A DNA stretch of 10,006 nt from an uncultured Bacillota bacterium (GTDB taxonomy: Bacteria > Bacillota > Clostridia > Peptostreptococcales > Anaerovoracaceae): the NCBI GenBank assembly GCA_946541435.1, contig CAMNJK010000042.1, positions 1-10,006 of the forward strand. The letters are read 5' to 3'. How positions within the stretch are numbered: position 1 is the first letter of the stretch; each line of letters begins with the position of its first letter. Positions 2,186 through 9,702 of the stretch are shown here, in pieces. A program made the translations under genes and the position numbers. The notes beneath the pieces were generated by a model. That model had not been told where the DNA came from and did no database searches. It saw only the letters and a program-made list of their open reading frames with translations.

Positions 2186-2233
2186 TAGAGATCGATCCGG
2201 CCTTTGACCTAGAGATCGATCCGGCCTTTGACC
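2186..2233. repeat. Perfect 24-bp tandem duplication across the phzF stop codon
   Basis: Bases 2186-2209 and 2210-2233 are identical. On the minus strand each copy contributes VKGRIDL plus a stop. Because 24 is a multiple of three, the second copy stays in frame: phzF ends in TAG (2211-2209) and is followed by a second VKGRIDL and TAA (2187-2185). Readthrough of TAG would add eight residues. Confidence 0.97.
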
Positions 2234-3210
2234 AGGATGGCGGCGGATCCCCCCACCCGGATCTGGATCCCGTTGCCGTCCCGGCGGATGACGGACCGGA
2301 TCTCCGAGGGCCGGCCCATGGCCTCGCCCTGAATGAAGCGGCATCTGTCGCCCCGCACCAGCCCGCTGCGGACCAGGTAATAGGTCAGGGCGCCGCTGGC
2401 AGTGCCGGTGGCAGCTTCTTCGTCAATGTCATAGAGGGGAGCGAAGTTGCGGCAGTATGCCGTGATCTTTTCGCCTTCATGGCCCAGGGCGAAGGCGTGG
2501 ACACCGGTGACGCCATATCGCTCTGACAGGGCGGACAGGGCCGGAAAATCCGGATCGATGGCGGCCAGAACTTCCCGGGAGGCCACCGGCAGAATGATGT
2601 CCGGAAGTCCCGTGGAGATCAGCCGGGGCACCAGGTCCAGATCACAGTAATCGATGCCGAGAACGGCGTACAGCTCCTGCAGCTCTTCCGGAGACCGGAT
2701 ATCCCCGATCTGCCGGGGCGCTGCCATGTCCATCAGGATCTGATCCCCTGCCACATCGATGAGCAGATCGCCAGCCTTTGCACGGTTCAGATAGGTCCCG
2801 CCGGTGTCGCAGAGACCGGCGTCCTTCAGGCAGTAATAGGAGGCGATGGTGGCGTGCCCGCAGAGATCCACCTCCGCGGCGGGGGTGAAATAGCGGACCT
2901 CGAAGCCGCCGTCGATGTCCTGGGGACGGAGCCCGGCGGGCGGGCGAAGGGTCCCGGTGTCGGCATCGGGCGGATTGGCGCCGGCGCTCCCGGCATCCGA
3001 TGGGTTGAAAATGCTTTCCAGGACCTGTTCCAGTTCCTCTGCGGGCATGGGACGGATGAAGGCCGTCTCCGAATACCTCAGCTCCGCGGCAGTCTTCCGC
3101 ATCAGCTCAGCGTCCGGAAAGTCCTCTCCCTGCCGCAGGATGACCACACCGGCGGGATTGCCGCCGAATTTCTCAGATGTGAACGCATCCGCGATATAGA
3201 TCTGTTTCAT
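2209..3210 (-). CDS. PhzF-family isomerase/epimerase-like protein
   Basis: A 333-residue member of the PhzF family (diaminopimelate epimerase fold), cytosolic enzymes named after the phenazine isomerase; most members, including this one, have no assigned substrate. Motifs seen: DAFTSEKFGGNPAGVV (residues 8-23), SETAF (47-51) with Glu48 at the position of the PhzF catalytic acid, YFTPAAEVDLCGHAT (107-121), and the C-terminal EEAATGTASGAL of the second half-domain. Residues about 57-101, rich in Gly, Pro, Ala and Asp, lie where most family members have only a short link between SETAF and the YFTP strand, so an insertion is likely. The ATG at 3210-3208 follows a strong GGAGG site; an upstream in-frame start lies inside that region and is unlikely. 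The gene stands alone, diverging from the ATPase gene; no other phenazine genes are present, so phenazine synthesis is not implied. Confidence 0.9.
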   Translation of the reverse strand: MKQIYIADAFTSEKFGGNPAGVVILRQGEDFPDAELMRKTAAELRYSETAFIRPMPAEELEQVLESIFNPSDAGSAGANPPDADTGTLRPPAGLRPQDIDGGFEVRYFTPAAEVDLCGHATIASYYCLKDAGLCDTGGTYLNRAKAGDLLIDVAGDQILMDMAAPRQIGDIRSPEELQELYAVLGIDYCDLDLVPRLISTGLPDIILPVASREVLAAIDPDFPALSALSERYGVTGVHAFALGHEGEKITAYCRNFAPLYDIDEEAATGTASGALTYYLVRSGLVRGDRCRFIQGEAMGRPSEIRSVIRRDGNGIQIRVGGSAAILVKGRIDL

Positions 3211-3325: not shown

Positions 3326-5329
3326 ATGCAGGAGCGGAAGACCGAGATCCAGCAGTTTGGAAACAAAATCAGGGACAGCATCCGGGAGGGAGTCCTGGAT
3401 GCGGTGAAGAACGACCGGGAGGAGCGGGCGCTGGAAGACCTGAAGCGCCGACTGACGCTGTCTCTCTGTTTTGTGGTGCCGCTGTTTCTGATCGACTGGC
3501 TGGTGGCCGGCAGCCTGGGCGCCATGATGGTGGAGATCCTGCTGACAGCCCTGCTGGTGGCGGTGAACCGCAGCTGTTTTACAGACGGATTCGAGTCCAT
3601 CCGGGCCAGAAGGCCGGAGAAGAATACCCTGGCGGCCATCGGCTCCATCGTGGCGCTCCTGATGTTCCAGTTCGCTACGGCCGGCCTGTTCCTGACCACC
3701 ATGGCCCTGTGCCGCTGCTGTGAAGCGTATGTCAGATACAAGCTGGATGAGCATCTGAAGAGACTGATCGAAGCGGAGCCGGAGGACCCCGGTCTGGAGA
3801 CGGGCGCCGTCATCACCGTCGAGATCGGTGAAGTGGTTCCGGCGGACGGGACCATCACTGCCGGAGAGACGGTGATCGAAGAGGAGCTCATCACAGGAGA
3901 ACGGGTCCCGGCGGACAAGTCTGCGGGCATGCAGGTCTACGCGGGATCGAAGAATCTGGCTTCCGGATTCGAAATGCGGGTGACCAGCACCGGCCAGGAT
4001 ACGGTGATCTCCAGGATCATTGAACATATCACCGCATCCATCGCCACCGAGGCTCCCATTGCCAGAAGGGCAGAGCGGGCGGCCCGTATCTTCGTGGTGG
4101 CAGTGATCCTGCTGGCGCTTTTCATGGCTTTTTTGTGGGCGGCTTCCGGGATCGGCTGGGACGACGGTATCATGACCGCCGTCACCATTCTGATCATCGC
4201 CAGCCCCTATATGTTTTCTGTGGGAGTGCCCATGTCTGTGCTGGCGGCCACTGTGCGGGGGGCAAAAAACGGGATCCTGATCCGTTCCGCGGACATCCTG
4301 GAGCTGGCCCGGGACATCAATACCATCGCCTTGAACAAGACCGGCACCGTGACGGAAGGCATTCCGGAAATCAGCGATGTGATCTCCATCGCAGAGGGCT
4401 TCAACCTGCGCTTCGCCGGCGGTCTGGAGCGGGGTTCCAGGCACCCCTTCGGACAGCTGATCTTCCAGACGGCCCTGGAACAGTACGGTGATCTGCCGGA
4501 GGTGGCGCGCAGGGAGGCGTTCCCGGGACGGGGCGTCCGCGGAGAGATCGACGGAAAGGTGTATTTCTGCGGCAACGCGGCCCTGATGCGGGAGCAGGGC
4601 ATCTCCCTGGACCTGCCGGAGGTGGACCCCTTGTTCCGCCAGGGGAAGAGCGTCGTGTTCTTCGCCAGCCAGCAGCGGGTCATCGGTGTGGTGGCCATGC
4701 GGGACGCGCCCAATCCCGTCAGTCTCAAGGCCATTTCCCGGATCGAAGGCATGGGGATCGATACCGTCATGCTGACGGGTGACAGTTTCCTGACGGCGGA
4801 GGCCATCCGGAATGAAGTGGGCATCGACCAGATCGTGGCAGAGATCCGGCCCTCGGAAAAGGCGGAGGCCATCCGGGTCCTGCGGGCCCATGAACAGAAG
4901 GTGGTGGCCATGGTGGGCAACGGCAGGGACGATGCGGAAGCCATTGCGGCAGCGGACATCGGCATCGCCATCGGATCCGGCCCGGAGATCCGCAGCATGA
5001 ATGCGCCGGACGAAGGCGGGCCAGCCTTTGCGCAGACCGCGCCGGACGGGAGCCCGGAAGATAACCGGACCCCGGACGTGATCCTGATCGCCAACGACAT
5101 GATGGATGTGGTGCGGGCCATCTCGCTGAGCCGGAAGACCATCCGGATCATCAAGCAAAACCTGGTGTTTGCCTACTGCTACAACATCATTGCCATCGCT
5201 GCTGCTGCAAGCATCCTGGTCCCCCTGGCGGGCCCGGCCCTGGCGCCGGTCATCGCATCCCTCTGTATGTGCGCCAGCCAGATCGGCGTGGTGGTCAGCA
5301 CCATGCGGATCAAGACCACCAGGCTTTGA
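3326..5329 (+). CDS. P1B-type ATPase homologue with substituted catalytic Asp (probable pseudoenzyme)
   Basis: A 667-residue membrane protein with the full heavy-metal P-type ATPase layout but no N-terminal metal-binding domain. Helices lie near residues 43-62, 64-84, 101-120 and 119-136, then the actuator domain with TGER (190-193; Glu192 kept), helices near 253-273 and 281-302, the P/N domains, and two last helices near 613-633 and 639-659. Kept motifs: HP (His373), GRGVRG (401-406) of the nucleotide-binding domain, and TGD (484-486). Changed motifs: the phosphorylated Asp of DKTGT is Asn337 (NKTGT); GDGxND reads GNGRDD (531-536), so the Mg-binding Asp is Asn532; the metal-site CPC reads SPY (293-295). 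The actuator domain appears to lack about 20 residues after residue 153, and about 25 extra residues follow residue 555. The ORF is uninterrupted with its own promoter, so it looks maintained, not decaying. Known P-type ATPases cannot form the phosphoenzyme without this Asp; a sensing or regulatory role is inference. The binding site before ATG 3326 is only moderate. Confidence 0.9.
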   Translation: MQERKTEIQQFGNKIRDSIREGVLDAVKNDREERALEDLKRRLTLSLCFVVPLFLIDWLVAGSLGAMMVEILLTALLVAVNRSCFTDGFESIRARRPEKNTLAAIGSIVALLMFQFATAGLFLTTMALCRCCEAYVRYKLDEHLKRLIEAEPEDPGLETGAVITVEIGEVVPADGTITAGETVIEEELITGERVPADKSAGMQVYAGSKNLASGFEMRVTSTGQDTVISRIIEHITASIATEAPIARRAERAARIFVVAVILLALFMAFLWAASGIGWDDGIMTAVTILIIASPYMFSVGVPMSVLAATVRGAKNGILIRSADILELARDINTIALNKTGTVTEGIPEISDVISIAEGFNLRFAGGLERGSRHPFGQLIFQTALEQYGDLPEVARREAFPGRGVRGEIDGKVYFCGNAALMREQGISLDLPEVDPLFRQGKSVVFFASQQRVIGVVAMRDAPNPVSLKAISRIEGMGIDTVMLTGDSFLTAEAIRNEVGIDQIVAEIRPSEKAEAIRVLRAHEQKVVAMVGNGRDDAEAIAAADIGIAIGSGPEIRSMNAPDEGGPAFAQTAPDGSPEDNRTPDVILIANDMMDVVRAISLSRKTIRIIKQNLVFAYCYNIIAIAAAASILVPLAGPALAPVIASLCMCASQIGVVVSTMRIKTTRL

Positions 5330-5445: not shown

Positions 5446-5475
5446 TTGACAAGTTTGCTGAAAGAGAAGTATAAT
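5446..5475 (+). promoter_or_regulatory. Consensus promoter for patA
   Basis: Perfect TTGACA (5446-5451), an 18-base spacer and perfect TATAAT (5470-5475). Transcription should start near 5482, giving a leader of about 180 bases. It is the only promoter in the window with both hexamers perfect. Confidence 0.88.
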
Positions 5476-8036: not shown

Positions 8037-8681
8037 ATGTCAAGCAGGAAGACCATCAAGTCAGCGATCGAATCCATGATGTTCATCTGGGGAGAACCCC
8101 TGAGCATCAAGGACATCGCGGACGTGTTCGGGATCGAAAAAAAAGAAGTATATGAGTGCTGCAGGGAGCTGATGGAGGAGTACGAGCAGGAAGGCCGCGG
8201 CATCGTGATCCGGGAGGTCAACAAGGCGTTCCAGTTCACCACCCGGGAAGAGAACCTGCCCTATATCGAGCGGCTTTGCACCCCGGTGCGCCACCGCCGT
8301 CTGTCCCAGTCCGCTCTGGAGACCCTTGCCATCGTGGCCTATCGTCAGCCGGTGACAAAAGGCGAGATCGAATCCATCCGCGGCATCCGCTGCGACCGGG
8401 TCATGGAAGGTCTGGTCCGCAAAGGGCTGGTCAGGGACATGGGCCGGTCTGAGTCAGTAGGCCGCCCCATCCTCTATGGGACCACCGATGAATTCCTGCG
8501 CCAGTTCGGCTTCGAGACCATCAAGGACCTGCCCGACATCAAGGACATCGAGGGCATTCTGGAGGATGAGGCTTCTGAGGAATTCCGGGACAGCCTGGAC
8601 CTGCAGCAGATCTCGCTGGCAGACCTTGCGGACGTGGCCGGGGACGAGGGCCCGGCGAAGGAATCAATACCCGAAGAATAG
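8037..8681 (+). CDS. scpB: Segregation and condensation protein B
   Basis: A 214-residue dimeric double winged-helix protein that binds the middle of ScpA and regulates the SMC complex. Seen: IKSAIESMMFIWGEPLSIKD at the N terminus (first winged helix), the family hallmark LSQSALETLAIVAYRQPVTK with GEIESIRG (near residues 88-117), GLVRDMGRSESVGRPILYGT, and TDEFLRQFGFETIKDLP. The acidic tail (about 176-214) is poorly conserved in the family. ATG 8037 has GGAGAAAGAG upstream; an in-frame TTG at 7992 has no good binding site and lies inside the duplicated sequence. It is very likely cotranscribed with scpA. Its last 18 bases overlap the 3' end of the converging nuclease-like gene. Confidence 0.95.
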   Translation: MSSRKTIKSAIESMMFIWGEPLSIKDIADVFGIEKKEVYECCRELMEEYEQEGRGIVIREVNKAFQFTTREENLPYIERLCTPVRHRRLSQSALETLAIVAYRQPVTKGEIESIRGIRCDRVMEGLVRKGLVRDMGRSESVGRPILYGTTDEFLRQFGFETIKDLPDIKDIEGILEDEASEEFRDSLDLQQISLADLADVAGDEGPAKESIPEE

Positions 8682-9512
8682 ACACGCGACCTGCTGCGCC
8701 TGCGCCTCGATCATCCGACTGTCGGTCCCGCCGTTTAAGTCATCGCTGGTCACGAAGAAGCTTTTGCCGAGGATGAAACCCTCGTGCAGGTACCAGTAGC
8801 ACTTCTCACCGTAGTCGATGGCATATCCCTTATCATGCAGCCGGCCCAGGTGCTCAATGATGATGAACGATCCGTCAAAGCACTGGATCAGAAAGTCCGG
8901 ACTGACGGTCTTCTTATTCCCGAAGCGGTCGGTGATGGTGATGACACAGTCATACCAGAACAGGACGCCCAGATCCAGCAGCGAATCATACCAGATCGTT
9001 TCCCCTTTGGAACGGGTGCGAGTGCCGTCCTTCGCGTAGTTTTCGGCTTTCGGGAAGGGCGCAGTGTTCCGCGGGTAGTCGGCAGAGGCCCACTGCTTCA
9101 GCTCTTCATAGCGCTGACCGAACTCGTCGCCGGCAGGATTGGCTTCGCAAGCCATCCGATATGATCTGGGCAGGTCAGAAAGGATCGCTTCGTGGCTGTA
9201 ATCCTGATAGCTGCGCGTCAGCCGATCAAGCAAAACCTGGTCATGCCTGAGCCTGGCCAGCCTTTCCATATTCAGCCGGGCGCAAATATGGGCGCGGACC
9301 GACGCAGTGTCCGGCTTGCCCAGGTATCGCTTGTGCGCGTGCCGGCCTTTCTTATCCTTCGTATAGGTAAGTTCATAGCAATAGAGCCCGTTTCCCCTGC
9401 GCTCGACACGCAGGCGGCAGGGCGGCGCAGCTTTGTCATCATTGCCCGTCAGATCGATGAGCTTCTGAATCCGCTTCTGCTCGACTTTTATCAGGTTTAT
9501 TAAGGTATTCAT
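8664..9512 (-). CDS. PD-(D/E)XK nuclease-like protein, orphan
   Basis: A 282-residue protein of unknown role. The C-terminal half carries a PD-(D/E)XK-type pattern: Glu171 in SKGETIWYDSLL with LGVLFWYD after it, SPDF (Asp206) and IIIEHLG (Glu220) after a beta hairpin, then KGYAIDY and a K-Y-Y pattern. The E-x-K lysine is replaced (Glu220-His221-Leu222). I recall EH-x-G at this position in other clostridial PD-(D/E)XK-like proteins, so another residue may take its place. The N-terminal part is basic: a short helix (IKVEQKRIQKLIDL), a YCYELTY...KRYLGK beta-rich section and a helical stretch. ATG 9512 follows AAGGAAGG; the frame is open further upstream but there runs through the palindrome array. 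No partner methylase, helicase or transposase is present. It may be a small mobile or defence-type gene; that is inference. No clear promoter is seen. Confidence 0.7.
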   Translation of the reverse strand: MNTLINLIKVEQKRIQKLIDLTGNDDKAAPPCRLRVERRGNGLYCYELTYTKDKKGRHAHKRYLGKPDTASVRAHICARLNMERLARLRHDQVLLDRLTRSYQDYSHEAILSDLPRSYRMACEANPAGDEFGQRYEELKQWASADYPRNTAPFPKAENYAKDGTRTRSKGETIWYDSLLDLGVLFWYDCVITITDRFGNKKTVSPDFLIQCFDGSFIIIEHLGRLHDKGYAIDYGEKCYWYLHEGFILGKSFFVTSDDLNGGTDSRMIEAQAQQVACLFFGY

Positions 9513-9550
9513 CCTGTTCAGCCTTCCTTTCTTAAATCGGCGATTTTTCA

Positions 9551-9702
9551 CTTGGGCAGATATACGGAAATTCTTGGGTATCAATACCCAAGGGATAGGT
9601 GATATATGCCCAAGAAACCCTGCTTTTTGATGCAAAAGTTGCGGATGATTTTTGCAAATGCTTGGGTATCAATACCCAAGAAATATAGAAATCGTGCCCA
9701 AG
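9551..9702. repeat. 22-bp-phased palindromic half-site array
   Basis: Seven copies of the 8-mer CTTGGGYA lie in two groups. Forward copies start at 9551, 9573 and 9661; reverse copies (TRCCCAAG) occupy 9585-9592, 9607-9614, 9673-9680 and 9695-9702. The inner pairs form two identical 20-bp palindromes (9573-9592 and 9661-9680; 9-bp arms, CA centre) set 88 bp apart. The outer copies lie exactly 22 bp from the inner ones, 88 being four times 22. The first group is fully symmetric over 64 bp: outer, 14 bases, palindrome, 14 bases, outer. The second lacks a good left outer copy. The pattern fits an operator array, a folded RNA leader or a REP-like element. Confidence 0.9.

Follow-up and report, generated by a model that had tools for sequence, protein, structure and literature searches.

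P-type ATPases are defined by a phosphorylated aspartate, carried in the DKTGT motif, and the accessible part of PMC13322241 reports that its replacement with asparagine blocks phosphoenzyme formation in SERCA, the Na,K-ATPase and the H,K-ATPase. For the copper-exporting P1B-1 pumps CopA and ATP7B (e.g. 7r0g, 3rfu), the role of the ATP7B N-domain glycines is treated in PMC3203118, in the available sections of which a direct ATP-binding role of the N-domain histidine is described as disputed. The closest analogue of the present protein that we met is TMEM94/ERMA, a eukaryotic P-type-like protein which, in those published descriptions that were accessible, combines a P-type architecture with altered DKTGT, TGES and GDGxND motifs, as does our query, but keeps the aspartate (DKQGI) and belongs to a different, eukaryotic family. 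The activity of ERMA is disputed: the accessible part of PMC12134183 gives micromolar AMPPCP binding, structures without nucleotide and no ATPase activity, whereas that of PMC13322241, from another group, gives ATP-dependent Mg uptake that is abolished by the Asp-to-Asn substitution.

In the open-access literature, we found no paper that treats P-type ATPases or P-type pumps together with pseudoenzymes, and none on NKTGT with ATPase; the accessible part of PMC10654040 makes no mention of a pseudo-ATPase. The window, by which we mean the whole stretch of 10,006 nucleotides analyzed, carries a gene (Table 1) whose product belongs to a clade, from uncultured gut bacteria, that keeps the whole P-type machine and yet fixes asparagine in place of the defining aspartate.

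Table 1. Coordinates of the pseudo-ATPase gene, its motifs and its neighbors in the window (counts refer to the 41 clade rows and 79 canonical rows defined in the text).
Feature	Positions	Strand	Basis or remark
PhzF-family isomerase, divergent neighbor	2209..3207	-	profile match
P1B-type pseudo-ATPase gene, 667 aa, without HMA domain	3326..5329	+	ORF, Pfam
Cys129, canonical Gly (78/79, one gap) to Cys (41/41)	3710..3712	+	alignment
TGER in place of A-domain TGES	3893..3904	+	T, G 41/41; E 36/41; Ser lost 41/41
SPY in place of the intramembrane CPC metal motif	4202..4210	+	S 25, N 15, D 1; P-Y 41/41
NKTGT, Asn337 in place of the phosphorylated Asp	4334..4348	+	Asn 41/41 clade, Asp 79/79 canonical
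E368 ... H373-P374, kept N-domain motif, 41/41 each	4427..4447	+	alignment
GRG of the N-domain glycine loop; G401 40/41, G403 41/41	4526..4534	+	alignment
G416-N417, N-domain nucleotide contacts; 41/41 and 39/41	4571..4576	+	alignment
TGD 484-486; T 41/41, G 39/41, D 39/41	4775..4783	+	alignment
GNGRDD in place of GDGxND; D532N only in query and P0026; D536 41/41	4916..4933	+	alignment
22-residue insertion, residues 559-580	5000..5065	+	query against 32 other rows of alignment A1
Y619-N620 of M5, 41/41	5180..5185	+	alignment
MCASQ of M6; M648 41/41, canonical Ser to Gln652 (41/41)	5267..5281	+	alignment
Perfect sigma-70-like site TTGACA-18-TATAAT	5446..5475	+	between pseudo-ATPase and aminotransferase
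Class III aminotransferase, PF00202	5662..7053	+	downstream of pseudo-ATPase

Fold and motifs of the protein

The reading frame is open end to end over its 667 codons, as the original prediction had stated. Its translation scores 394.3 bits with the NCBIfam heavy-metal P-type model TIGR01525, above the cut-off of 346.25, but 353 bits with the copper-translocating subfamily model TIGR01511, below its curated cut-off of 397. The Pfam matches are an E1-E2 ATPase domain and a HAD hydrolase domain; a metal-binding HMA domain was not found in the query. The predicted structure has the A, P, N and membrane domains of a P1B ATPase and matches P1B ATPases over the whole chain; model confidence is low at the insertion, which sits between the GNGRDD loop and M5 and is missing in the other A1 rows. 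The query thus shares with CopA and ATP7B the complete fold, the domain order, the N-domain ATP residues and most of the P domain, and canonical members of that group occur at its own chromosomal locus; unlike them, it is without the acceptor aspartate, CPC, the serine of TGES, GDGxND and the HMA domain.

A search of about 5.8 billion proteins, of which the best 120 of 8000 scored candidates were taken, returned at least 41 clade relatives at 46–99% identity to the query, followed by a gap down to ordinary pumps at about 34%. We counted 41 clade rows, a lower bound on the size of the clade: the query and 40 relatives at 46–77% identity (P0002–P0041, where P denotes a protein row, G a genome and L a locus). 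P0001 (99% identity) is the protein of the window itself and was excluded. The canonical reference set consists of the 79 relatives P0042–P0120 among the matches listed. Alignment A1 comprises the query and 32 of the 40 other members, P0004–P0007, P0009 and P0011–P0013 having been left out as near-duplicates.

Re-reading the window placed the acceptor-site asparagine codon (AAC, 4334–4336), the GNGRDD loop (residues 531–536) and the HP (373–374), GRGVRG (401–406) and TGD motifs where they had been reported. Asparagine occupies position 337 in every distinct clade row, and aspartate in every canonical one. The codon is AAC in all seven clade nucleotide sequences and GAC, a single G-to-A step apart, in their sisters; a reversion to aspartate would be one base away, and is seen in 0/41 rows. 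In the loop for Mg and phosphate, the canonical set has D532 in 79/79 and N535 in 78/79 rows (one gap), and the clade has lost N535 throughout (Asp 25, Lys 4, Tyr 3, Gln 3, Thr 2, Arg 2, Glu 1, His 1 of 41) while retaining D532 in 39 rows and the last aspartate in all. The original prediction proposed an altered Mg site and, as a test, a search for a clade with both NKTGT and GNGxDD fixed. Of the two, only NKTGT is fixed; the D532N change is nearly private to the query, and, with GNG in 2/41 rows, could itself be a recent mutation or an error. By alignment, the D337N swap is what defines the clade, and D532N does not.

Changes that the original prediction had not named are the replacement of CPC by (S/N/D)PY, the absence of HMA and the loss of the TGES serine, whose place is taken by arginine in 37 rows. 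Of the features expected of an active enzyme, the phosphorylated aspartate of DKTGT, the GDGxND Mg/phosphate loop, the TGES dephosphorylation motif and the CPx metal motif of M4 are accordingly all broken. The N-domain nucleotide residues E, H, P, G, G, G and N are all present in the query and kept in 39–41 of the 41 rows at each position. They are complete also in 4/4 actuator-less homologues from the same locus, and these homologues and the query have catalytic or metal motifs broken in differing ways. In the P domain, 36 of 49 canonical-invariant positions are kept in 90% or more of the clade. The mean number of such positions kept is 13.4/20 in N, 39.0/49 in P, 13.0/22 in A and 16.8/28 in M5–M6, so that retention in the N domain is below that of the P domain and only modestly above that of A and M5–M6.

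At 21 canonical-invariant positions, including G129C, C295Y, A647C and S652Q, the clade has switched to another fixed residue, several of these switches being conservative swaps. The fixed intramembrane set of C129, Y295, Y619, N620, M648 and Q652 suggests that a ligand is still bound in the membrane.

Distribution, ancestry and selection

A scan of an 84,980-species collection with two peptide patterns, in which matches were required to be similar to the query, gave 15 related loci: seven clade genes reading NKTGT or NKRGT (two of them in one genome), one 3' piece of a clade gene, six other NKTGT proteins and one DKTGT pump. Within these limits of pattern and similarity, asparagine at the acceptor site appears rare. 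Three Acrocarpospora P1B proteins (L044, L046, L049) resemble the query in NKTGT and an altered CPC (CPA or SPR), but have a CxxC-type N-terminal motif, TGES and GDGVND and form a separate lineage, whose loss of the acceptor aspartate was apparently independent. Proteins of Oscillospiraceae/Ruminococcaceae (L047, L048) and Butyrivibrio (UBA3740; L045) likewise combine an acceptor asparagine with a broken metal motif; unlike members of the query clade, they are 27–29% identical to the query and have different neighbors. The NKTGT proteins of Acrocarpospora, Butyrivibrio and Oscillospiraceae/Ruminococcaceae all look independent in origin. Downstream of L048, translations read as ferredoxin-like and oxidoreductase-like genes.

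Among 49 incomplete genomes of the query's genus, seven carry the NKTGT gene (G000, G002, G010, G011, G024, G034, G065), with two clade copies in G065 and an NKRGT reading in G024. G024 holds an additional 140-residue N-terminal piece (43% identity) at a contig end; in G005, a 3' piece of a clade gene lies at a contig end and the motif region is absent. A survey of 393 genomes drawn evenly from the larger order, with few candidates scored per genome, yielded three matches at E <= 1e-180, all in the query's genus and one of them (G067) canonical. Across these incomplete genomes, members of the clade turned up in a single genus. Its named metagenome-assembled genomes include some from roe deer jejunum, goat jejunum and RUG-coded isolates, a code that we take to denote rumen.

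In 8/8 clade loci whose contig extends far enough, a class III aminotransferase follows the ATPase at 148–336 bp; the ninth contig (G011) ends inside the ATPase. Congeners that have an ATPase directly upstream of the same aminotransferase place it at 239–504 bp, and the forms found there vary. The ATPase is canonical (CPC, DKTGT, GDGIND) in G031, G032 and G067, partial at a contig end in G016, N-domain-less in G025, and actuator-less in G012 (SPC, GDGISD, with a TAG near the gene end), G017 (CPG, GDSVND), G029 (DKRGT, GDQVRD) and G026 (NKLGT, GYDDSD). A canonical ATPase lies farther upstream in G063 (2.4 kb) and G008 (5.6 kb), and no same-strand ATPase ORF was found upstream of the aminotransferase in 13 congeners in which 5.6–8.6 kb were read.

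In the main tree, the NKTGT clade (the query and 12 of the 40 other members) is monophyletic (100/100) on a long stem of 1.33 changes per column; it stands next to G012/G017 and is nested within canonical G031/G032 (bootstrap 94). This tree left out the long-branch G026 and G029, the N-domain-less rows, Acrocarpospora, Butyrivibrio and the partial G016. A quick tree of all forms (the query and 22 of 40, with Acrocarpospora as outgroup) gives the same arrangement, except that the long rows G026 and G029 are joined. Synteny and tree together show that the pseudo-ATPase descends from a copper exporter of the P-type that occupied this chromosomal locus. The picture is of one locus at which the metal domain and the CPC site of a copper pump disappeared, and at which one branch was stabilized as a full-length pseudo-ATPase.

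The clade gene is under purifying selection despite its lost catalytic residues. The original prediction had proposed a test for constraint over the clade, and the Nei-Gojobori method with bootstrap, applied to the seven clade genes with nucleotide sequence, gave dN/dS of 0.105 (0.08–0.14) for the closest pair, L035–L037, and 0.25 (0.19–0.32) for query–L037, compared to 0.091 for a canonical sister pair. Values for clade pairs with finite dS span 0.105 to 0.445 and are approximate, dS being about 1 or more and thus near saturation. None of the seven genes has an internal stop. Synonymous codons are exchanged at the constant residues Y295, K338, G340 and T341; no synonymous variation was seen at N337, C129 or Q652 in the same seven sequences. 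Over four clade pairs, the P domain has dN/dS of 0.10 to 0.21. M5–M6 is the lowest domain in query–L037 (0.15) and query–L035 (0.12) and second lowest in L035–L037 (0.06), but neither of these in L040–L053 (0.32). The N domain is the fastest in query–L035 (0.50) and second highest in two of the four pairs, and the kept ATP residues therefore belong to a domain in which other positions are readily replaced. Because its dN/dS ranks so high in three of four pairs, these residues may be kept partly for folding.

Neighboring genes

The nearest model for the aminotransferase is putrescine aminotransferase, with a score (607.5 bits) below the cut-off of 612. A scan of the plus strand of the window gap found no terminator after the pseudo-ATPase. 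The promoter-like site in this gap has counterparts reading TTTACA-17/18-TATAAT in the same gap of the 6/6 other loci read (L035, L037, L039, L040, L053, L059), each preceded by a TTGTTA or TTGTCA stretch just before TTTACA; TTGACA or TTTACA, 17–18 bases and TATAAT thus recur in 7/7 gaps. An operon with the aminotransferase, which appears to have a promoter of its own, is not shown. Given these sites and the 13 congeners without an ATPase at this position, we rejected a functional link between the two genes, and the synteny is therefore taken as evidence of orthology rather than of partnership. Farther along the window, an ORF at 8664–9635 on the minus strand (323 residues) has no Pfam or NCBIfam match.

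A proposed role and its alternatives

Fixation of NKTGT in a clade that has 100/100 support in the tree, is under purifying selection and keeps the ATP residues speaks for the original call of a pseudoenzyme, a status that is, judged by sequence, well supported. Because the ATP pocket is kept and the changed membrane residues are fixed, we favor, with a probability of roughly 60%, a nucleotide-binding, non-pumping P1B pseudo-ATPase that would act as an ATP- and ligand-gated membrane regulator and that stems from the copper pump of the same locus. Such a protein would probably be a membrane sensor or regulator instead of a pump. The roles of sensor, scaffold or partner that the original prediction had offered are conjectural.

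We propose the following model. The pseudo-ATPase is predicted to fold as a complete P1B pump, and from the kept pocket it would be expected to bind Mg-nucleotide between the N and P domains. With asparagine at the acceptor position, the protein should be incapable of forming the aspartyl-phosphate by which pumping is driven, and the CPC copper site would be unusable. A membrane ligand, other than copper held by CPC, would occupy the rebuilt site, its occupancy setting the state of the membrane domain, while ATP binding would close the cytosolic head without phosphoryl transfer. The protein would then be a switch, either a nucleotide/ligand sensor or a regulatory subunit.

A sequencing or assembly error, or a recent point mutation in the query, would fit the observation that a single base separates each change from its canonical codon, but the same asparagine stands in all 41 distinct rows; error and recent mutation are therefore ruled out at N337, and with only GNG (2/41) left as a candidate we give this explanation negligible weight. 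Very improbable, too, is a decaying relic: a copper pump that had become redundant and is being lost by drift, at a locus with repeated degeneration of ATPases. The actuator-less versions in four congeners, with the TAG of G012, are what this account draws on. For the NKTGT clade, however, drift to loss is largely contradicted: 7/7 clade genes are free of stops, no clade pair with finite dS reaches a dN/dS of 0.45, the new residues are fixed in 41/41 rows, and codons such as those of Y295 and K338 change synonymously only.

The constraint on M5–M6, strongest or second strongest in three of the four pairs with L040–L053 as the exception, would also suit an active transporter in which Asn337 is deamidated to aspartate, or which draws on ATP binding alone, with no phosphoenzyme, and which moves a new substrate via SPY, YN and MCASQ. 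TGE is largely kept (E192 in 36/41) and Y619, N620 and M648 are constant; furthermore, ERMA is claimed, in the accessible part of PMC13322241, to transport with non-canonical motifs. ERMA retains its aspartate, however, and the same text has its D-to-N mutant without Mg uptake, while in the clade the needed aspartate (GAC) is never found and N535 and the TGES serine are lost as well, which makes active transport unlikely. We also consider it unlikely that the pseudo-ATPase is specifically a regulatory subunit that assembles with, and tunes, an active CopA-like or other metal ATPase of the genome. Six of eight clade genomes (G000, G002, G010, G011, G024, G065) also have an ORF of 773–915 aa whose A domain matches strongly, in G000 (L002) with CPC, DKTGT and GDGIND, so that a partnership with an active copper pump is possible in these six. 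Against it, a CopA-like paralogue was not found in G034 and G005 (both incomplete, with only the 3' piece of the clade gene in G005), and the active gene of G000 is on a different contig from the pseudo-ATPase.

The favored regulator may be part of a broader change, which we put forward tentatively and would not bet on: at one locus of this genus, a copper pump may have become a dedicated membrane ATP receptor, possibly the first class of bacterial P-type pseudo-pump regulators. Pumping chemistry would have been removed by Asp-to-Asn and CPC loss in the NKTGT clade and by loss of the actuator domain and broken motifs in four other species; the ATP-binding head would have persisted, and the clade would in addition have remodeled its intramembrane site to suit a new ligand. 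Pseudokinases are now a research field of their own. The clade is natural material with which to separate ATP binding from ATP hydrolysis in P-type pumps, and the persistence of the canonical type at the same locus in sister species makes the step from pump to pseudo-pump directly comparable.

The same genus has P-type ATPases without a nucleotide-binding domain, of copper and Zn type, in seven genomes, a form for which no relevant paper was found in the open-access literature. Trans-complementation, in which a pseudo-ATPase with an N domain and no aspartate would pair with such an ATPase, is not supported for the clade: among these incomplete genomes, those of the clade (G000, G002, G005, G010, G011, G024, G034, G065) do not overlap with those of the N-domain-less genes (G006, G016, G019, G020, G025, G026, G028; likely also G029, G032, G067, G070). 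G026 holds both an N-domain-less Zn-type gene and its NKLGT actuator-less protein. The eight N-domain-less genes read (L106:313-2223 in G025, L060 and L067 in G028, L147 in G020, L143 in G016, L144 in G019, L145 in G006 and L146 in G026, the last with a TAA within the match) have 31–53 residues between DKTGTxT and TGD, and all have CPC, DKTGT and GDGxND. Likely further members of the Zn type occur in G067, G032, G029 (with stops) and G070 (split).
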